Part shown: piece after piece, positions 29,520 to 47,820 of the stretch
Numbering within the stretch: position 1 is the stretch's first letter
How the letters are laid out: every line of letters starts with the position of its first letter
DNA from: Acidobacteriota bacterium
GTDB lineage: Bacteria > Acidobacteriota > Terriglobia > Terriglobales > Acidobacteriaceae
Assembly (NCBI GenBank): GCA_021780315.1
Contig: JAJXYY010000030.1
Span: 1 to 64,000, forward strand
Reading direction: 5' to 3'
DNA: 64,000 bases
Notes under the pieces: model-generated
Seen by the model: the letters and a program-made list of their open reading frames with translations, nothing else
The model's database searches: none
What the model was told of the DNA's origin: nothing
Translations under genes and position numbers: made by a program

Positions 29520-31646
29520 ATGCCTCTCTCCCGTCCCGGCCTCCTGCTGCTTCTCCTCGCCACCGCCCTCGCCCCTGCCGCCGCCCAATCCCTGCAGCTC
29601 ATCCCCGTCCCCCGGGAACTCCACGCCGTCGGAACCCAGCCCCTCACCGCCGGCATCGACATCGCCTGCGCCGCACCCTGCGCTCCCGAAGATCTCTTCG
29701 CCATCGAAGACCTCAAAGCCACCCTCACCACCCGTGGCATCGTCATCAATCCCGCCGCACCCGTCCATATCCTCGTCACCCGCTTCGGCACTCCCCTCGC
29801 CAACTCCATCTACTCCGAATCCCTCACCCCCACAGCCTCCACCCCAGCCACCCCGCCACCCGAATTCAAGCCCGAGGGCTACAGCATCGTCCCCGACAGT
29901 AAAGGCATCGCCCTCACTGCCGTCACCGCCTCCGGTGTCTTCTACGCCCTCCAAACCGTCAAGCAGCTCATCGAAGGCTCCGGCCCCGCCGCCATCCTCC
30001 ACACCGCCACCATCCGCGACTGGCCCGCTCTGGCCTACCGTGGTCTCTCCGACGACCTCTCCCGCGGCCCCATCCCCACCCTCGAATTCCAGAAAAAAAT
30101 CATCCGCACCCTCGCCGCCTACAAAGTCAACATCTACTCCCCCTACTTCGAAAACACCATGCAGTACTCCAGCATCCCCCTCATGGCGCCCCCCGGCGGC
30201 ACATTCACCCAGGCCCAGGCCCGCGAACTCATCGCCTACGCCGCCCCCTACCACGTCACCATCCTCCCCCAGCAGGAAGCCTTCGGCCACCTCCACTATC
30301 TTCTCAACTGGGAGCAGTACTCCCCCATCGCCGAAACCCCGCACGGACACGTCTTCGCCCCCGCCCAGCCCCAATCCCTCCAGCTCACCCACTCCATGTT
30401 CTCCGAGCTCGCCGCCGTCTACCCCAGCCCCTTCCTCCACATCGGTGCCGACGAGACCGTAGACCTCGGCAAAGGTCAAACCAAAGCCGCCGTAGACACC
30501 CAGGGCCTCGGCCCCGTCTACCTCGACTTCCTCCAGAAGATCGTCACCGACCTCCAACCCCTCCACCGCAAGCTCCTCTTCTGGGGAGACATCGCCATGC
30601 ACGACCCCGACCTCGTCAAGCAACTCCCCCCAGCCTTCAAGCAAGCCACCATCGCCGTCGCATGGGAGTACAACCCCCAGCCCAAAGGCTTCGCCCGCTG
30701 GATCACCCCCTTCACCGACGCCCACATCGAAACCTGGATCGCCTCCGGAATCAACAACTGGTCACGCGTCTATCCCAACTGGAACAACGCCCTCGCCAAC
30801 ATCCAGCAGTTCACCGCTCAAGGCGAAGCCTTGGGAGCCACCGGACAGCTCAACACCATCTGGAACGACGACGGAGAAACCATCGCCAGCTCCAACTGGT
30901 ACGGCATCCTCTTCGGGGCCGAAGCCGCCTGGCACAAAGGCGAAGCCTCCATCCCCGCATTCCAGTCCTCCTACGCCGCAGTCTTCCACGGAGACCTCTC
31001 CGGCAAAATCGACGAAGCCCAGCGCGAACTCATGGCCGCCCACCAACTCCTCCACGACTCCCCCCTCAAAGTCGACGCCTCCGACCTCGCCTATTGGGTC
31101 GATCCATGGTCCCCCGACGGCCAGCATCAGGCCGCCCTCATCCGCCCCATCCTCGCCGACCTCCGCCTCCACGCCGAGCGCGCCATCACCCTCACCGCCC
31201 AGGCCCGCGCCGCCAACCCCAACCTCCGCGAGACCGACGCCCTCGACGCCCTCGACCTCGGCGCCCGCCGCATCGACCTCATCGGCCTCAAATACCAGCT
31301 CACCGACGAGATCGCCGCCAGCTACGCCCACGCCGTCTCGCTCCAGTCCTCCCGAAAAAAAGAAGACCGCGAAGAGGTCTACCGCGAACTCAACGACATC
31401 AACTCCCCCAACGGTAAACTCCAGGACCTCCGCAACAACTACGCCCTCCAGCGCGACCTCTACGAGGACCTCTGGCTCCGCACCGATCGCCCCTACTTCC
31501 TCCGCAACAACCTCGAACGCTTCGACTTCACCATCCAGCTCTGGCTCGCCCGCATCGACAAACTCCGCTCCGCCCAGCGCCAGTACGCCCAGTCCCAAAC
31601 CCTCCCCACCGCCACCGACCTCGGCATCCCCATCCCCCCCAAATAA
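29520..31646 (+). CDS. GH20 beta-N-acetylhexosaminidase
   Basis: Signal peptide; 'LIPVPRELHAVGTQPLTAG', 'DWPALAYRGLSDDLSRGPIP', 'LHIGADETVDLG' catalytic D-E. Confidence 0.88.
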   Translation: MPLSRPGLLLLLLATALAPAAAQSLQLIPVPRELHAVGTQPLTAGIDIACAAPCAPEDLFAIEDLKATLTTRGIVINPAAPVHILVTRFGTPLANSIYSESLTPTASTPATPPPEFKPEGYSIVPDSKGIALTAVTASGVFYALQTVKQLIEGSGPAAILHTATIRDWPALAYRGLSDDLSRGPIPTLEFQKKIIRTLAAYKVNIYSPYFENTMQYSSIPLMAPPGGTFTQAQARELIAYAAPYHVTILPQQEAFGHLHYLLNWEQYSPIAETPHGHVFAPAQPQSLQLTHSMFSELAAVYPSPFLHIGADETVDLGKGQTKAAVDTQGLGPVYLDFLQKIVTDLQPLHRKLLFWGDIAMHDPDLVKQLPPAFKQATIAVAWEYNPQPKGFARWITPFTDAHIETWIASGINNWSRVYPNWNNALANIQQFTAQGEALGATGQLNTIWNDDGETIASSNWYGILFGAEAAWHKGEASIPAFQSSYAAVFHGDLSGKIDEAQRELMAAHQLLHDSPLKVDASDLAYWVDPWSPDGQHQAALIRPILADLRLHAERAITLTAQARAANPNLRETDALDALDLGARRIDLIGLKYQLTDEIAASYAHAVSLQSSRKKEDREEVYRELNDINSPNGKLQDLRNNYALQRDLYEDLWLRTDRPYFLRNNLERFDFTIQLWLARIDKLRSAQRQYAQSQTLPTATDLGIPIPPK

Positions 31647-31650
31647 CCCG

Positions 31651-31797
31651 GGGTGCCGGGTGCCGGGTGCCCCATGTCTCGCCTCTGAGACATGGGAGTG
31701 TAAAAAGCCCGGGTGCCCCATGTCTCGCCTCTGAGACATGGGAATGTAAAAAGCCGGGGTGCCCCATGTCTCGCCTCTGAGACATGGGAATGTAAAA
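31651..31797. repeat. Three tandem 46-bp copies of the GGGTGCCCCA hairpin element
   Basis: GGGTGCCCCATGTCTCGCCTCTGAGACATGGGARTGTAAAAAGCC starting at 31665, 31711 and 31757; 10-bp stem CCCATGTCTC/GAGACATGGG. Confidence 0.95.
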
Positions 31798-31876
31798 CTC
31801 CCAACGACCTAACCTCCCACCTCCAAATACCTCGGAATATAAAAACGCAAACCACCGCGCGTACACTACTTCAGTC

Positions 31877-33031
31877 ATGCAAACCCTCACCGCCCGACGC
31901 CTCCTCACTCCGCACGGACACCTCGACCACCCCGTCATCACCCTCACCACCGACGGCCTCATCGCCGACATCTCCTCCGACCCCACCATCCGCTCCGAAG
32001 ACACCCTCACCGCCACCTTCCTCGACATCCACACCCACGGCTGCGCCAACCACGACGTCATGCAAGCCACCCCCAGCGGCTTCCAGACCATCCACGCCTT
32101 CCTCGCCACCAAAGGCGTTGGCCGTTATCTCCCCACCACCGTCACCGCCCCCATCGACCCCACCCTCCGCGCCCTCGAACGCATCGCCAACGCCATCGAA
32201 TCCCCCTCCACCCCCGGCCACGCCACCCCCATCGGCATCCACCTCGAAGGCCCCTTCATCTCCCATGCCAAACGCGGAGTCCATCCTCCCGCCAACATCC
32301 AGCCCCCCAGCATCGAACTCTTCCAGCGCTTCCAGCAAGCCGCCCGTGGCCACATCCGCCTCATCACCATCGCCCCCGAAGTACGTGGTGCCCACGGAGA
32401 AGCAGACGCCCTCGACCTCATCCAATACGCCACCCAATCAGGCACCCGCGTCTCCCTTGGCCACTCCAACGCCACCGCGCCCGAAACCCTCGCCGCCATC
32501 GCCGCCGGAGCCACCTCCGCCACCCACACCTTCAACGCCATGCGCCCCCTCGACCACCGTCACCCCGGCATCCTCGGCACCGTCCTCGACAACGATGCAC
32601 TCTTCGCCGAACTCATCTGCGACGGCATCCACGTCGCCCCAGAACTCATCCGCCTCTGGCTCCGCACCAAGGGCCCGGACCGCGCCATCCTCGTCACCGA
32701 CAGCATCTCCGCCACCGGCATGCCCGATGGCACCTACGCCCTCGGCAACCTCACCGTACAGGTCGCCAACCACACCTGCCTCCTCGTCGAAAACGGCAGC
32801 CCCACCCCAACCCTCGCCGGCTCCGTCCTCACCATGGACCGCGCCGTTGCCAACCTCCAGCACTACACCGGAGCCACTCTCGCCACCGCCATCCACCTCG
32901 CCAGCCACAACCCCGCCACTCTCCTCGGCCTCCCCACCAACCTCGCCGCCGGCCAGCCCGCCAACTTCAACCGCTTCTCCCCCCACGGCCACCTCCTCTC
33001 CACCATCCTCCAGGGCCAACCCACCAACTAA
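31877..33031 (+). CDS. nagA: N-acetylglucosamine-6-phosphate deacetylase
   Basis: 'FLDIHTHGCANHDVMQA', 'IGIHLEGPFISHAKRGVHPP', 'LGHSNATAPETLAAIAAGATSATHTFNAMRPLDHR', 'LVTDSISATGMPDGTY'. Confidence 0.95.
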   Translation: MQTLTARRLLTPHGHLDHPVITLTTDGLIADISSDPTIRSEDTLTATFLDIHTHGCANHDVMQATPSGFQTIHAFLATKGVGRYLPTTVTAPIDPTLRALERIANAIESPSTPGHATPIGIHLEGPFISHAKRGVHPPANIQPPSIELFQRFQQAARGHIRLITIAPEVRGAHGEADALDLIQYATQSGTRVSLGHSNATAPETLAAIAAGATSATHTFNAMRPLDHRHPGILGTVLDNDALFAELICDGIHVAPELIRLWLRTKGPDRAILVTDSISATGMPDGTYALGNLTVQVANHTCLLVENGSPTPTLAGSVLTMDRAVANLQHYTGATLATAIHLASHNPATLLGLPTNLAAGQPANFNRFSPHGHLLSTILQGQPTN

Positions 33032-33471: not shown

Positions 33472-34809
33472 ATGTCTCATCCACAAACCGCCATCGGCAT
33501 CGACTTCGGCACCACCAACAGCTCCGTCGCCCTCGCGCTCCCCAGCGGCCACGTCGAACTCGTCTCCTTCCCCACCGCCACCACCCCCACCCAATCCTCC
33601 CGCTCCGTCCTCTATCTCGAACAGCGCAAACAAGCCGGTCGCACGCAGATCAAAGGCTTCACCGGCCCCTCCGCCATCGAGCACTACCTCACCGCCGACC
33701 CCAAGGGCCGCCTCATCCAATCCCTCAAGTCCTACCTCCCCAGCCGCACCCTCACCGGAACCGAAGTCTTCGGCCGTCGCTACTCCGTCGAAGACCTCAT
33801 CTCCCGCATCCTCTCCGACCTCCGCCTCCACGCCGAACTTGCCCTCCAGCAGCCCATCCACCACGCCACCGTTGGCCGCCCCGTCCGCTTCGTCGGCTCC
33901 GAATCCGACGAGGATGACGCCTTCGCCCTCTCCCGCCTCGAAGCCGCCTTCCTCCACGCCGGCTTCCACTCCGTCACCTTCGAGCTCGAACCCATCGCCG
34001 CCGCCTACGCCTACGAGTCCACCCTCAGCCGCGACGAACTCATCCTCATCGGCGACTTCGGCGGCGGAACCAGCGACTTCTCCCTCGTCAACGTCGGCCC
34101 CTCCAGCCGCACCATCCCTCGCGCCCAGCGCATCCTCGGCAACTCCGGCCTCGGCCTCGCCGGAGACGCCTTCGACGCCCGCATCGTCCGCCATCTCGTC
34201 TCCCCAGCCCTGGGCTCCACCTCCTTCGAGCGCTCCTTCGCCCAGGCATCCGACCGCCCCGCCAACCTCATCCCCGCCGCCCCCGCCTGGATCTACGCCA
34301 ACCTCGAGCGCTGGCACTACCTCTCCTTCCTCAAAACCCGCAACGTCGCCGAAATCCTCAAATCCGCCCGCGCCCGCGCCGAACAGCCCGAAAAAATCGC
34401 CGCTCTCATCACCCTCATTGAAGAAGACCTCGGCTACCAACTCCATCAAGCCGTTCAACGCCTCAAAGTCGATCTCTCTCGCCACGAAACCGCCCACTTC
34501 CGCTTCCCCCAACTTGGGCTGGCAGGCAGCATGGAGATCGAACGCACCGTCTCCCGCTCCGACTTCGAACTCTGGATCGCCGACCAGCTCCAATCCATCG
34601 AATCCTGCGTCGACAACCTCCTCCAAACCACCGGCATCGCCCCCGCGCAAGTAGATCGCGTCTTCCTCACCGGAGGCACCAGCTTCGTCCCCGCCGTCCG
34701 CCGCATCTTCGAGTCCCGCTTCACCCCAGCCCGCGTCCGCACCGGCAACGAGTTCACCTCAGTAGCCCAGGGCCTCGCCCTCCGCGCCCTCGAATCCACC
34801 CCCGCCTGA
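33472..34809 (+). CDS. Hsp70-family (YegD-like) actin-fold chaperone
   Basis: 'AIGIDFGTTNSSVAL', 'LILIGDFGGGTSDFSLV', 'VDRVFLTGGTSFVPAVRRIF'. Confidence 0.88.
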   Translation: MSHPQTAIGIDFGTTNSSVALALPSGHVELVSFPTATTPTQSSRSVLYLEQRKQAGRTQIKGFTGPSAIEHYLTADPKGRLIQSLKSYLPSRTLTGTEVFGRRYSVEDLISRILSDLRLHAELALQQPIHHATVGRPVRFVGSESDEDDAFALSRLEAAFLHAGFHSVTFELEPIAAAYAYESTLSRDELILIGDFGGGTSDFSLVNVGPSSRTIPRAQRILGNSGLGLAGDAFDARIVRHLVSPALGSTSFERSFAQASDRPANLIPAAPAWIYANLERWHYLSFLKTRNVAEILKSARARAEQPEKIAALITLIEEDLGYQLHQAVQRLKVDLSRHETAHFRFPQLGLAGSMEIERTVSRSDFELWIADQLQSIESCVDNLLQTTGIAPAQVDRVFLTGGTSFVPAVRRIFESRFTPARVRTGNEFTSVAQGLALRALESTPA

Positions 34810-34931: not shown

Positions 34932-35873
34932 CTACTGCCCACCCCTCGCCCGCCACAAAGCCCCAGCCAACGAATCCACCGCACCCGACAACACCCGCAC
35001 CGATGGAGCCGACTCCCGCAAAGCCTCCACCATCGCCTCCCGCACCGGAGCAATCTTCTCCAACACACTTCCCGTATACGCCAACCCCACCTCACCGCCC
35101 GCCCCACCAAACTCCACCAACTTCAACTCCACCAGCGCCACCTGCTCCGCCAACTCCGCTCCCGCCCGCGCCAGCACCGCACCCGCCAACTCATCGCCAC
35201 CCGCCGCACACTTCGCCACTACCGGAGCCAGCGCCGCAAAGTCCGGCCCCGGCTGTCCATTCCCCATCTCCACCAACTCCCCCAGCGACCCCGCGCCCCA
35301 CGCCTCCTCGATCGCCTCCAGCAATCCCGTCGGCACCCCACGATCCCGCGCCCACAACCCCGCCCGCACCGCCTCCAGCCCAATCCAGTACCCCGAACCC
35401 TCATCCCCCAGCACCGGCCCCCAACCACCCGCCCAGAACCGCACCATCTCCCCCGTCTCCCCATCCACCGTACGCCCCACCACATTCGACCCCGTACCCG
35501 AGATCACCAGCACCCCCCGCCCCCCCTCAAACGCCGCATCCAAAGCAATCTCTTCATCCCCACACAGCAACACCTCCCCACCCACCGCCTCCCCCAGCGT
35601 CCGCTCCGCCCACCCCCGCACTGCCGCAATCGAAAGCCCAGCCAGCCCCATGCAAGTACGCGAAATCTCCCCCAACCCCACCCCGGCCTGCTTCGAAACC
35701 TCCACCAGCAGACCGCGCAAACGCTCCGTCGCCTCCGCCTCCGACACCCGCATCAGCTTCACGCTCCCGCAACTCGCCCGCGCCAGCACCCGCGTCTCAT
35801 CTGCCAGCACGCACTCCGTCTTCGTCCCACCCGCATCCACCGCCAGAAAGTATGCCAAATCCCCATCCCCCAT
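34932..35873 (-). CDS. BadF/BadG/BcrA/BcrD-type sugar kinase (N-acetylglucosamine kinase-like)
   Basis: 'FLAVDAGGTKTECVLADE', 'LVISGTGSNVVGRTVDGETGEMVRFWAGGWGPVLGDEGSGYWIG'. Confidence 0.85.
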   Translation of the reverse strand: MGDGDLAYFLAVDAGGTKTECVLADETRVLARASCGSVKLMRVSEAEATERLRGLLVEVSKQAGVGLGEISRTCMGLAGLSIAAVRGWAERTLGEAVGGEVLLCGDEEIALDAAFEGGRGVLVISGTGSNVVGRTVDGETGEMVRFWAGGWGPVLGDEGSGYWIGLEAVRAGLWARDRGVPTGLLEAIEEAWGAGSLGELVEMGNGQPGPDFAALAPVVAKCAAGGDELAGAVLARAGAELAEQVALVELKLVEFGGAGGEVGLAYTGSVLEKIAPVREAMVEALRESAPSVRVLSGAVDSLAGALWRARGGQ

Positions 35874-35957: not shown

Positions 35958-38900
35958 TTGCCGCTTAGCCTCACCGCCCTCATCGCCTCTCTGCCACCTG
36001 CCCTGCCCCAGCACCTTCGCCCCTTCGACCTCGCGCTCATCCTCATCTACCTCATCGGCATCACCCTCTTCGGCCTCCGCTTCCGCAAAACTACCTCCAC
36101 CGGAGCCCCCGACAGGTCCCTCAAGTCCTACTTCCTCGCCAACAACACCATCCCCTGGTGGGCCATCGCCCTCTCCATCGTCTCCGCCGAAACCTCCACC
36201 CTCACCATCATCTCCATCCCCGGCGTAGCCTTCACCGGAGACTTCGGCTTCCTCCAGATCGTCATCGGCTACATGCTCGGCCGCATCGTCGTCGCCGTCC
36301 TCTTTCTCCCCAAATACTTCCACGGCGAGATGCTCACCGCCTACCAGCTCATCGACCGCCGCTTCGGCCCTACCCTCCACAAAGTCACCGCCAGCCTCTT
36401 CCTCCTCACCCGAGCCGCTGCCGAAGGCGTCCGCGTCTTCGCCGTCTCCATCGTCGTCGGCATCGCCATCGGCACCAACGACACCCTCTCCATCGCCATC
36501 ATCTCCTTCCTCACCCTCCTCTACACCTTCGAGGGCGGCATGACCGCCGTCATCTGGACCGACGTCGTCCAAATGGCCATCTACATCGGCGGAACCCTCG
36601 TCGCCATCTTCACCCTCGGCACCCACGTCCCCGGCGGCTGGCAACACATCCACACCGTCACCTCCGCCACCCACAAACTCACCGTCTTCCACTTCGCCTT
36701 CAACCTCACCCAGTCCTACACCTTCTGGGCCGGCATCCTCGGAGGAACCTTCCTCACCATGGCCTCCCACGGCACCGACCAACTCATGGTCCAGCGCATG
36801 CTCGCCGCCCGCAACCTACGCGAATCCCGCCTCGCCCTGCTCTCCTCCGGCGTCGTCATTTTCTTCCAGTTCACTCTCTTCCTCCTCATCGGAGCAGGCC
36901 TCTACGTCTTCTACAATCTCCACCCCCAAATCTTCTCCAGTCCCGACCGCATCTTCCCCACCTTCATCGTCTCCCAGATGCCCATCGGCACCGCCGGACT
37001 GCTCGTCGCTGCCATCCTCGCCGCCGCCATGTCCAACCTCTCCGCCGCCCTCAACTCCCTCTCCTCCACCACCGTCGTAGACTTCTATATGCACTGGCGC
37101 CGGGTGCCCCATGCACACGACAGTTCCACCGTCGGGTGCGTGGGTGAAGCGTCACGACCTTCGACGGAGGCAGCCATCTCAGATCGCGAACGCATCTTCG
37201 TCAGCCGGGCATCCACCGTCCTCTGGGCCTTCGTCCTCTTCGCCATCGCCGTCTACAGCATCCACACCGGAGGCAAAGGCCATGTCGTCGAAACCGGCCT
37301 CTCCATCGCCTCCGTAGCCTACGGCTGCCTCCTCGGCGTCTTCCTCCTCGGAACCCTCACCCAATACGCAACCCAAACCGGAACCATCATCGGCATGATC
37401 ACCGGCTTCGCCCTCAACCTCTACCTCTGGCAAGGCAACTTCCCCGTTCACCTCGGCCCCATCACCATCCCCCACATCGCCTTCACCTGGTACGTCCTCA
37501 TCGGAGCCATCGTCACCTTCGCCATCGGCTCCCTCGCCAGCCTCATCTTCCGCAAACAGTCCACCCACAAAGCCGTTGCCGCCGCCGCTCTCATCCTCTG
37601 CCTGAGCCTCACCCATCACGCATCCGCACAAACCCGGGCACCCCATCTTCACGCCAGCCTAATCGTCGCCAAACCGGGCATCGGCGAAACCGCCCCTTCC
37701 ACCACCGCCTCCCCACCTCAAACGCCAAAACAAAATTCCGCAGCCCCAACAAGAACTACCCCCCTAAGCAAAATCAAGCTCCCCGCACCCGCTTTTGCCC
37801 TGGCTTCTAGGTACCCCAAGGCTTCAGCCTTGGGTCTCTCTCCCCTCGCCCAGAACACCGGGCTTCAGCCCCTGGGGTATGCTCTCCTTCAATCCACCAC
37901 AAACCCCGCACGAGCCACCCCCGACTTCACCCCCATCAACACCCTCATCAACAACGCCATCGCCGCCCACAAAATCCCCGGAGCAGTCGTCGTCATCGGC
38001 CACAACGGAAAAATCGCATTCGAGCAAGCCTACGGCGTCCGCAAACTAGCCGGAGAACCCAGCCCCTTTGGAACCGCCGCCGAACCCATGACCGAAGACA
38101 CCATCTTCGACATGGCCTCCCTCACCAAAGTCCTCGTCACCACCACCGCAATCATGCAACTCTACGAGTTACATAAACTCGACGTCGACGACCCCGTAGC
38201 CAAATACCTCCCCGACTTCGCCGCCAACGGCAAACAAAACGTAACCATCCGCGAACTCTTAACCCACTACTCCGGTCTACCCGAAGACGTCGACCTCAAA
38301 GACCCCTGGGGCCTCACCGCACCCGACAAAGCCGAAGGCATCCGCCGCGCCCTCGCCTCATCGCTGGTCGCAACACCCGGCACCCACTTCGAATACTCCG
38401 ACATCAACTTCATCACCCTCGGAGCACTCGTCGAAAAGCTCAGCGGGCAACCACTCGATGTCTATGCGCGAGAGCACATCTTTATCCCCCTCGGCATGGC
38501 CGGGACCCGCTATCATCCGTTCGAAAAAGCCTGTGGCCCTATTCAGCGTCTTGGCGCCGATATTCTGCTGCCTCGTTTCAACGCCACGCAACGCCGCCCC
38601 TCTGGTGATTGTATGGTCGGATGGACTCCAGCCGATTCCAACACCGCCCCCACCGCCCACGACAACGAAGGTTCCCCCGCCACCAACCCCGACTTCGACC
38701 ACCTCCTCCGCGGCACCGTCCACGACCCCACCACCCGCCGCATGGGCGGAGTAGCCGGACACGCCGGCGTCTTCTCCTCCGCCCACGACCTCAGCCTCTT
38801 CGCCCAGGCCCTCCTCGACAAGCTCCTCTCCAACACCGGCCCCTTCCCCCTACAACAATCCACCCTCCAGCTCATGCCCCGCCCCCAGCAGCCCCCCACC

Positions 38901-40688
38901 GCCCAACCCGGAGCCACCATCTTCACCCCCGACGGCCAGGTCACCAAAGGCGTCGCCACCCGTGGCTTCGGCTGGGACATCAACTCCGCCTTCTCCCGCC
39001 CCCGCGGCGTAGTCTTCCCCATCGCCACCGCCGAGCACCCCGGCTCCTTCGGCCACACCGGCTTCACCGGCACCTCCCTCTGGATCGACCCCACTACCAA
39101 CACCTACGTCATCCTTCTCTCCAACGCCATCCACCCCCGCGGCGCACCCCCCATCTCCACACTCCGCGGCCAAATAGCCACCGCCGCCGCCCTCGCCCTT
39201 GGCCTCGCCTCCGCACGCTCCGCTGAGTGCGATCAGCCCAACACCTTCTGCGATCCCTCGAAACGGCCAAAAGAAGCCACAACCCTGGGTGCCCCACATC
39301 TCGTTTCTGAGATGTGGGCATCAAGCGAAGCTCGACCGTCTTCCCCCACGCCACTCCCCACTTCCACTCCCGCCACCCTCACCGGCATCGACACCCTCGA
39401 AGCCACCCGCTTCGCTGCTCTCGCCTCCGCCGCCGCTCGCCACCACAACACCCTCCGCCTCGGCCTCCTCACCAACCACACCGGCCTCGACGCCATGCAC
39501 CGCCGCACCATCGACATCCTCTTCTCCGACGCCCCCAAAGACGTCCCCGGCCTTCGCCTCACCGCCCTCTTCTCTCCCGAGCACGGTATCCTCGGCGCCG
39601 CCGACACCGAACACATCGGCAACGACACTGACCCCACCACCCACCTCCCCATCCTCTCCCTCTACGGACCCCACGACACCGACAAGCGTCCCTCCCACGA
39701 TGCCCTCGTCAACCTCGACGCCGTCGTCATCGACCTCCAGGACGCCGGTGTCCGCTTCTACACCTACGAGTCCGTCGTCGGCTACTTCCTCGAAGCCGCA
39801 GCCGCCGAGCGCACCCTCGGCCACAACCTCGAAGTCATCCTCCTCGACCGTCCCAACCCCCTCGGCGGCCTCGCCATTCAGGGCCCCATCTCCGACGCCG
39901 ATCTCTCCTCCTACACCGCCTACATGCCGCTCCCCATCCGCCACGGCCTCACTCTCGGCGAACTCGCCCGCTATATCAACGGAGAGCGCCGCCTCCCCAG
40001 CCCCACCTCCCCCAATATGTTTCTCCCCCTCAGTGCCCCGCTCACCGTCGTCCCCATGCAGTACTGGCGTCGCAGCATGTACTACGACGACACTGGTCTC
40101 GCTCCCCACGGCGAGTGGCCCACCCCCAGCCCCAACCTACGCTCCCTTACCGCAGCCACCCTCTACCCCGGCGTCGCCCTGCTCGAAACCACCAACGTCT
40201 CCGTAGGCCGCGGCACCGACACTCCCTTCCAGCACATCGGAGCCTGCTGGGCTCCCCTCAAGCCCCCCGCAAAAAAATCCCCACCCCGCACCACCTGCGC
40301 CCCCGAAGACCAGGTCGACGGCCCCGCCCTCGCCGCCTACCTCACCGCACGCCATATCCCCGGCGTCACCTTCGCCCCCACCACCTTCACCATCCCGGAT
40401 GACGCCAACCGCTACCCCTACCACGGCCTCAGCATCAACGGCGTTGCCATCACCCTCACCAACCGCACCCTCCTCGACGCTCCCGAACTCGGCATCGAAC
40501 TCATCGCCGCCCTCCACCACCTCTACCCCAACCGCTTCGACCTCGCCAAAGCAGCCACCCTCATCGCCAGCGTCAACACCATGCAATCCCTCGCCAACAA
40601 CGAAGATCCCCGCACCATCGCCGCCGCCTGGGCAGCCGAACTCAACGCCTTCAACCAGCGCCGCCAACCCTACCTCCTCTACCCCTAG
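35958..40688 (+). CDS. Apparent triple fusion: sodium:solute symporter (SSS), beta-lactamase-fold serine hydrolase, and DUF1343/NamZ (exo-N-acetylmuramidase-like) domain
   Basis: TTG start with AGGAGA 5' of it; single open frame for 1576 aa. SSS 35958-~37600 ('FDLALILIYLIGITLFGLRF..'); hydrolase ~37930-39230 (S-x-x-K 'DMASLTK'); DUF1343 ~39380-40688 ('RLGLLTNHTGLDAMHRRTIDIL', 'LFSPEHGILG', 'VVIDLQDAGVRFYTYESV'). ORF track's 34872 start is antisense to the kinase. Confidence 0.8.
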   Translation: MPLSLTALIASLPPALPQHLRPFDLALILIYLIGITLFGLRFRKTTSTGAPDRSLKSYFLANNTIPWWAIALSIVSAETSTLTIISIPGVAFTGDFGFLQIVIGYMLGRIVVAVLFLPKYFHGEMLTAYQLIDRRFGPTLHKVTASLFLLTRAAAEGVRVFAVSIVVGIAIGTNDTLSIAIISFLTLLYTFEGGMTAVIWTDVVQMAIYIGGTLVAIFTLGTHVPGGWQHIHTVTSATHKLTVFHFAFNLTQSYTFWAGILGGTFLTMASHGTDQLMVQRMLAARNLRESRLALLSSGVVIFFQFTLFLLIGAGLYVFYNLHPQIFSSPDRIFPTFIVSQMPIGTAGLLVAAILAAAMSNLSAALNSLSSTTVVDFYMHWRRVPHAHDSSTVGCVGEASRPSTEAAISDRERIFVSRASTVLWAFVLFAIAVYSIHTGGKGHVVETGLSIASVAYGCLLGVFLLGTLTQYATQTGTIIGMITGFALNLYLWQGNFPVHLGPITIPHIAFTWYVLIGAIVTFAIGSLASLIFRKQSTHKAVAAAALILCLSLTHHASAQTRAPHLHASLIVAKPGIGETAPSTTASPPQTPKQNSAAPTRTTPLSKIKLPAPAFALASRYPKASALGLSPLAQNTGLQPLGYALLQSTTNPARATPDFTPINTLINNAIAAHKIPGAVVVIGHNGKIAFEQAYGVRKLAGEPSPFGTAAEPMTEDTIFDMASLTKVLVTTTAIMQLYELHKLDVDDPVAKYLPDFAANGKQNVTIRELLTHYSGLPEDVDLKDPWGLTAPDKAEGIRRALASSLVATPGTHFEYSDINFITLGALVEKLSGQPLDVYAREHIFIPLGMAGTRYHPFEKACGPIQRLGADILLPRFNATQRRPSGDCMVGWTPADSNTAPTAHDNEGSPATNPDFDHLLRGTVHDPTTRRMGGVAGHAGVFSSAHDLSLFAQALLDKLLSNTGPFPLQQSTLQLMPRPQQPPTAQPGATIFTPDGQVTKGVATRGFGWDINSAFSRPRGVVFPIATAEHPGSFGHTGFTGTSLWIDPTTNTYVILLSNAIHPRGAPPISTLRGQIATAAALALGLASARSAECDQPNTFCDPSKRPKEATTLGAPHLVSEMWASSEARPSSPTPLPTSTPATLTGIDTLEATRFAALASAAARHHNTLRLGLLTNHTGLDAMHRRTIDILFSDAPKDVPGLRLTALFSPEHGILGAADTEHIGNDTDPTTHLPILSLYGPHDTDKRPSHDALVNLDAVVIDLQDAGVRFYTYESVVGYFLEAAAAERTLGHNLEVILLDRPNPLGGLAIQGPISDADLSSYTAYMPLPIRHGLTLGELARYINGERRLPSPTSPNMFLPLSAPLTVVPMQYWRRSMYYDDTGLAPHGEWPTPSPNLRSLTAATLYPGVALLETTNVSVGRGTDTPFQHIGACWAPLKPPAKKSPPRTTCAPEDQVDGPALAAYLTARHIPGVTFAPTTFTIPDDANRYPYHGLSINGVAITLTNRTLLDAPELGIELIAALHHLYPNRFDLAKAATLIASVNTMQSLANNEDPRTIAAAWAAELNAFNQRRQPYLLYP
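37102..37160. repeat. GGGTGCCCCA hairpin element inside the SSS coding region
   Basis: GGGTGCCCCATGCACACGACAGTTCCACCGTCGGGTGCGTGGG; arms pair except one G.U and one mismatch. Confidence 0.75.
37812..37879. repeat. Second palindromic element: TACCCC...GGGGTA with two internal hairpins
   Basis: TACCCC AAGGCTTCAGCCTT GGG ... CCGGGCTTCAGCCCC TGGGGTA, within the hydrolase linker. Confidence 0.65.
39288..39339. repeat. GGGTGCCCCA hairpin element at the hydrolase/DUF1343 junction
   Basis: GGGTGCCCCACATCTCGTTTCTGAGATGTGGGCATC; perfect CCCACATCTC/GAGATGTGGG stem. Confidence 0.8.
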
Positions 40689-47630: not shown

Positions 47631-47820
47631 GGTGCCGGGTGCCCCATGTCTCGCTTCTGAGACATGGGAATGTAAACCGCCCAGGTGTCCATCTTCACCG
47701 CCCGGGTGCCCCATGTCTCGCTTCTGAGACATGGGTATGTAAAACTCCCGGGTGTCCCATCTTCACCGCAGCCTCATCGCGGTGGGCATTCGCGAAGCGA
47801 AACGCTCTCCTCATCGACGC
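47631..47820. repeat. Second array of GGGTGCCCCA hairpin elements (two type-A copies plus one variant)
   Basis: GGGTGCCCCATGTCTCGCTTCTGAGACATGGG twice (from ~47637 and ~47703) and GGGTGTCCCATCTTCACCGCAGCCTCATCGCGGTGGGCATTCGCGAAGCGAA from ~47751. Confidence 0.92.

Follow-up and report, generated by a model that had tools for sequence, protein, structure and literature searches.

A sodium/solute symporter joined to an S12 hydrolase and NamZ through a predicted internal signal peptide in Acidobacteriaceae

In a 64,000-nt stretch of an Acidobacteriota genome (contig JAJXYY010000030.1; the whole stretch analysed is referred to as the window), one gene joins an SSF sodium/solute symporter, a predicted Sec signal peptide, an S12 hydrolase and a NamZ exo-β-N-acetylmuramidase (Table 1). 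Comparison with related genomes confirmed the joined architecture as real, neither a product of chance nor an assembly fault. Its best explanation, favoured here with moderate confidence, is a polyprotein of peptidoglycan amino-sugar salvage that would be cut by signal peptidase.

The original prediction of a single frame holding a symporter, a serine hydrolase and a NamZ/DUF1343 domain was borne out. A frame check of the window found zero internal stops between the TTG at 35958 and the TAG ending at 40688, and all Pfam domains were far over cut-off: SSF at residues 58–390 (1.7e-34), Beta-lactamase at 661–1061 (6.7e-68), NamZ_N at 1169–1397 (2.5e-61) and NamZ_C at 1402–1575 (1.4e-32). The frame is formally open already from 34872; the TTG at 35958, preceded by AGGAGAG, is the sole ATG/GTG/TTG within 60 codons ahead of the first helix. 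The fused gene carries the only NamZ of the genome.

Table 1. Coordinates of the fused gene, its parts and its neighbours in the window (the slash marks the predicted cleavage point).
Feature	Position	Strand	Basis or details
Whole fused gene, SSF symporter – signal peptide – S12 hydrolase – NamZ	35958..40688	+	1576 aa, open frame
SSF sodium/solute symporter, residues 1–528, about 13 TM helices	35958..37541	+	PF00474, TIGR00813, PDB phmmer, hydropathy
Palindromic-repeat-like insert, ~22 aa, within a symporter loop predicted to be cytoplasmic	37101..37172	+	Alignment, DNA fold
Predicted internal signal peptide, R532–A557	37551..37628	+	Basic n-region RKQSTHK, core AVAAAALILCLSLT, site ASA/Q
Linker 1, hypervariable	37629..37901	+	Holds palindromic-repeat-like stretch
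S12 / beta-lactamase-fold hydrolase	37902..39227	+	S721-x-x-K724, Y813-S-D, H1033-T-G
Linker 2, between hydrolase and NamZ	39228..39362	+	REP-type palindrome 39285–39330 read in frame
NamZ exo-β-N-acetylmuramidase domains	39363..40685	+	FSPEHG, invariant E1208
BadF/BcrAD-family sugar kinase (NagK/MurK-like), divergent neighbour	34932..35873	-	PF01869; NF046058 below cut-off; synteny
NagA, GlcNAc-6-phosphate deacetylase	31877..33031	+	TIGR00221 over cut-off; synteny
GH20 β-hexosaminidase, probably exported	29520..31646	+	PF00728/PF02838; synteny

The search for the same fusion, or for adjacent separate genes, covered 60 related genomes and 80 named loci (81 with the window), classed by a script according to whether hydrolase and NamZ lay in the stop-free frame of the symporter. 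The hydrolase was in this frame in 57 of the 81 loci and formed a separate nearby gene in 18; none was seen in the remaining six, comprising four true absences and two loci (L068 and L087) cut by a contig end. In the Granulicella/Edaphobacter clade all 49 informative loci were fused, as were most Terriglobus loci, including that of the complete T. roseus genome, while in a few fused loci from metagenome-assembled genomes NamZ was frame-shifted (L065, L088) or absent at a contig end. Across the 7,860 in-frame junction codons of the 57 fused loci no stop occurred in frame 0, as against 212 in frame +1 (57/57 loci) and 129 in frame +2 (49/57 loci); the fused class being itself defined by an open frame, the strength of this count rests on the clade-wide absence of alternatives. 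Thirty different lengths of the junction linker were seen, the shortest 24 bp and the longest 360 bp, every one in frame. In four pairwise comparisons, dN/dS was ~0.13–0.5 for symporter, signal peptide, hydrolase and NamZ, indicating purifying selection; for the linkers, most comparisons were saturated or close to neutral. An open frame arising by chance from C-rich sequence, or an artefact of assembly or sequencing, would find some encouragement in the long spurious frames that C-biased codons yield elsewhere in the window, but is rendered negligible in probability by the 57 fused loci, the occurrence of the same fusion in independent isolates and a complete genome, and the selection acting on all domains. 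The earlier caveat that such codons make an open frame weak evidence was not upheld, given the stops in the other two frames.

The linkers appear to tolerate the insertion of palindromic elements. In linker 1 a palindrome-like stretch at 37811–37880 is read as RYPKASALGL...GLQPLGYAL, and RYPKASALGL...GLQPLG-like peptides were also found at this linker in L033, L055 and L069. The REP-type palindrome GGGTGCCCCAnnTCTCGnnnCTGAGAnnTGGG matched exactly at 36 sites of the genome and at none in a reversed control, with further sites in the window at 31663–31800 and 47637–47735; changes in its stem were compensatory (ATGTCTC/GAGACAT, ACATCTC/GAGATGT, ACGTCTC/GAGACGT and AGGTCTC/GAGACCT). The insert in the symporter is likewise read in frame, being absent from nearly all relatives with a single match among the loci examined; L054 carries a different insert at the same loop site. 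These in-frame palindromes are reminiscent of Rickettsia palindromic elements.

The symporter scored 119.8 bits against PF00474 (cut-off 22.8) and 187.6 against TIGR00813 (cut-off 184), and its closest solved relative was the sialic-acid symporter SiaT (5NV9; PDB phmmer, 8.4e-38). In the Na2 region S342/S343 of SiaT align with S359/N360, the second Ser of the motif standing opposite Asn, and both positions are invariant in 42 members. Also invariant are R152, E156 and R159, which bracket the alignment position of SiaT Arg135 and, judging from this alignment, could bind an acidic amino sugar.

In the hydrolase, S721/K724, Y813-S-D and H1033-T-G are invariant or nearly so, giving the SxxK, YxN-type and KTG/HTG motifs. 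The nearest curated family was PBP4B (YfeW; NF002968) with 149.5 bits against a cut-off of 385, which put it before every beta-lactamase family, class C trailing with 46.7 bits; by these scores the hydrolase is a PBP4B relative and not a member of PBP4B/YfeW. Both NamZ domains exceeded their cut-offs (PF07075, 207 bits; PF20732, 114 bits), and the FSPEHG glutamate, in an alignment with 4JJA and 4K05, was invariant in 39 sequences; its position is presumably that of the catalytic glutamate of NamZ. Throughout the class the hydrolase is found in company with NamZ. From its fold, its similarity to PBP4B and this linkage to NamZ, we infer that the S12 domain acts as an amidase on MurNAc-peptides.

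Averaging hydropathy over 42 sequences gave about 13 helices, after which come a basic patch and one more hydrophobic core, a short one, and this layout is present in all fused proteins. By the alternation of these segments RKQSTHK is predicted to face the cytoplasm. If the N-terminus lies outside, as is known for 13-helix members of the SSF, the basic patch would lie inside and the sequence after the core, with hydrolase and NamZ, in the periplasm. With signal-sequence calls made from a simple motif and hydropathy, a [small]xA[QED] site was found just past the core in 49 of 56 fused proteins, corresponding in the window gene to a predicted cut between 37628 and 37629, and the seven exceptions were mostly near misses (AVGQ, GVSQ, AHGQ, CEAA and, beyond the search window, SAAQ). 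Shuffling within windows yielded 14 such sites on average and never more than 24 (2000 shuffles; mean 13.5 with pooled shuffling), which somewhat overstates significance since related sequences are not independent, and the motif statistics are accordingly descriptive. The motif was present in 36/165 windows further down the linker, in 9/47 in the second linker and, among split relatives, in 12/18 genuine signal peptides at the N-terminus. The ends of other SSF helices (10/586) were replaced as a null by the composition shuffles and linker windows, because the linkers are Ala-rich and the helix ends too lenient a null. The segment KAVAAAALILCLSLTHHASAQ (residues 538–558), earlier read as a former signal peptide, retains the signal-peptide features, and ‘former’ does not hold, the site being kept about as well in fused proteins (49/56) as in unfused relatives (12/18). 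Three signal peptidase I (S26) genes were found in the genome.

The gene neighbourhood agrees with the peptidoglycan recycling theme of the original prediction, the neighbours being GH20, NagA and a BadF-type kinase, which also flanks the symporter in unfused relatives and outgroups. Two TIGR00274 (MurQ) matches over cut-off lie elsewhere in the genome, and among the loci examined no MurQ was found beside the fusion or its relatives. An HSP70/actin-like chaperone gene (33472–34809; best match PRK11678, below cut-off) sits inside this neighbourhood and is syntenic in many relatives.

Among split relatives, those of Acidipila, Silvibacterium, Paracidobacterium and Acidobacterium encode hydrolase–NamZ as a gene of its own, which the symporter gene adjoins or overlaps, in several cases through a 4-nt stop/start overlap (GTGA/ATGA), and the N-terminus of the separate gene bears a signal peptide like that of the fused junction. 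The pairs of the sister genera Acidipila, Silvibacterium and Acidobacterium share with the window gene the same parts, order and signal peptide but consist of two genes, abutting or overlapping and mostly in different frames. In Terriglobus albidus a DUF3738 gene (L084:9488-10306) lies between symporter and hydrolase–NamZ; L081 and L082 show a similar spacing between the halves. In the wider class NamZ normally occurs in frames of ~400 aa or, as hydrolase–NamZ, ~800 aa. Outgroup genomes have, behind the symporter, a gene for an amino-acid permease where the hydrolase would otherwise stand (L107:9530-10900, L111:1993-3393 and L112:7780-9210), and this permease might import the released amino acids. 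On the symporter tree, which does not fix the root, the fused and split states require two changes, compatible with one fusion and one re-split. The earlier idea of a recent gene fusion is right as to the fusion (57/81 loci) and unsupported as to ‘recent’, the fusion being clade-wide and old.

A 1379-aa frame (L120:552-4691; G052:C115) from another Acidobacteria family, with the fusion in one genome, combines a different SSF with a signal peptide, hydrolase and NamZ. Its SSF shares 21% identity with that of the window (E 4e-4) and adjoins hydrolase–NamZ in many other genomes, often divergently (e.g. G078, G170 and G184). L120 represents an independent fusion of a distant SSF to the hydrolase–NamZ unit.

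Taken as a cleaved polyprotein, the symporter of about 13 helices would end in a predicted cytoplasmic C-terminus, and an intact Sec signal peptide immediately behind it would re-enter the membrane and carry both enzymes, the S12 hydrolase and NamZ, out to the periplasm. There, cleavage by signal peptidase I would most likely fall after A557, giving one symporter per soluble amidase–NamZ enzyme. Once exported, the S12 domain would remove the stem peptides of MurNAc in the manner of AmiE/PBP4B, NamZ would free MurNAc at non-reducing ends and GlcNAc would be freed by GH20 from the neighbouring gene; the symporter, as a MurNAc/GlcNAc-type importer, would then take up the sugar for the BadF-type kinase, MurQ and NagA. 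Points against this scheme are the sialic acid moved by the nearest solved relative of the symporter, the Asn360 opposite the second Na2 Ser and the minority of junctions that deviate from the strict cleavage motif.

A permanent tether, in which the hydrophobic segment would be a 14th TM helix and the amidase–NamZ part, bound to the symporter, would feed it sugar directly, is possible and distinctly less probable than cleavage. The same topology would also make the enzymes periplasmic, a single chain is most simply accounted for by its joining them to the transporter, and a minority of members lies off the strict cleavage motif (e.g. ASPQ in L033 and CEAK in L064). The core is short for this reading (14 residues in the window gene, median uncharged run 16), and a tether needs no small-x-A site before Q, E or D, yet the site is kept beside a freely diverging linker; its conservation next to hypervariable sequence favours cleavage of a polyprotein over lasting attachment. 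Of the membrane-tethered degrade-and-import machine proposed at first, the amino-sugar salvage theme stands, with the tether modified to a cleaved polyprotein as the favoured form.

Separate initiation of hydrolase–NamZ at an internal translation start, yielding two proteins, has its models in the split relatives, which initiate this unit separately, and in L120, where a Met is kept directly ahead of the signal peptide; it is nevertheless very improbable and was rejected, as the window gene has no in-frame ATG/GTG/TTG from the last symporter helix to the signal-peptide core and none is conserved by position before the core among fused relatives. The same fused protein might instead serve another role, such as beta-lactam hydrolysis or transport of another, sialic acid-like solute, as could be read from the beta-lactamase/esterase fold of the S12 domain and from SiaT as nearest solved SSF. 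This is unlikely in view of the lead of PBP4B over class C beta-lactamases, the joint occurrence of hydrolase and NamZ throughout the class and the kinase/NagA/GH20 context.

The cleaved polyprotein would be catabolic: signal peptidase I would split a nutrient importer from the two enzymes that produce its substrate outside the cytoplasm, so holding their supply at 1:1, in an arrangement kept clade-wide and with a similar fusion arising a second time with a distant symporter. We hold this wider reading to be slightly better than even. The presence of the symporter in the same chain, its conservation across the clade, the second fusion and the adjacent gene pairs make it a strong candidate for a non-PTS MurNAc-type importer. 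This candidate occurs in abundant soil bacteria, with a link to peptidoglycan-sugar release as direct as genomics can make it. If the reading is correct, the gene would encode a rare bacterial polyprotein cut by signal peptidase, and to annotate it as an error or as an enzyme tethered to the membrane would mislead. Living relatives display every step towards it, from separate through overlapping genes to the fusion.

A precedent for the mechanism is Bradyrhizobium fbcH, the cytochrome b/c1 polyprotein, in which a multi-helix membrane protein and a second protein are separated by signal peptidase at an internal signal peptide; fbcH differs in serving a respiratory complex, not transport or catabolism. 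A symporter–NamZ fusion with a conserved internal signal peptide was not found in the open-access literature searched; the parts and pathway are already known. MurNAc operons include the genes of both AmiE and PBP4B, and that of B. subtilis has ybbC (later NamZ) as its last gene (PMC5061867). This murQ-murR-murP-amiE-nagZ-ybbC(namZ) operon has the same function set as the window gene, namely a MurNAc transporter, the muropeptide amidase AmiE and NamZ, but encodes them as separate genes with the PTS transporter MurP, whereas the window has one chain with a sodium-symporter-family importer (PMC5061867). In E. coli murQ-murP-yfeW a PBP4B-type S12 protein accompanies a MurNAc transporter, as in the window, although here too the genes are separate and the transporter is of the PTS type, and the window hydrolase falls under the PBP4B cut-off (PMC5061867). 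In Tannerella forsythia, where murTKQ stands with ampG, non-PTS MurNAc import is followed by a kinase and MurQ, with ybbC in the same transcription unit (PMC5388701); the theme is shared with the window, but the genes are separate.
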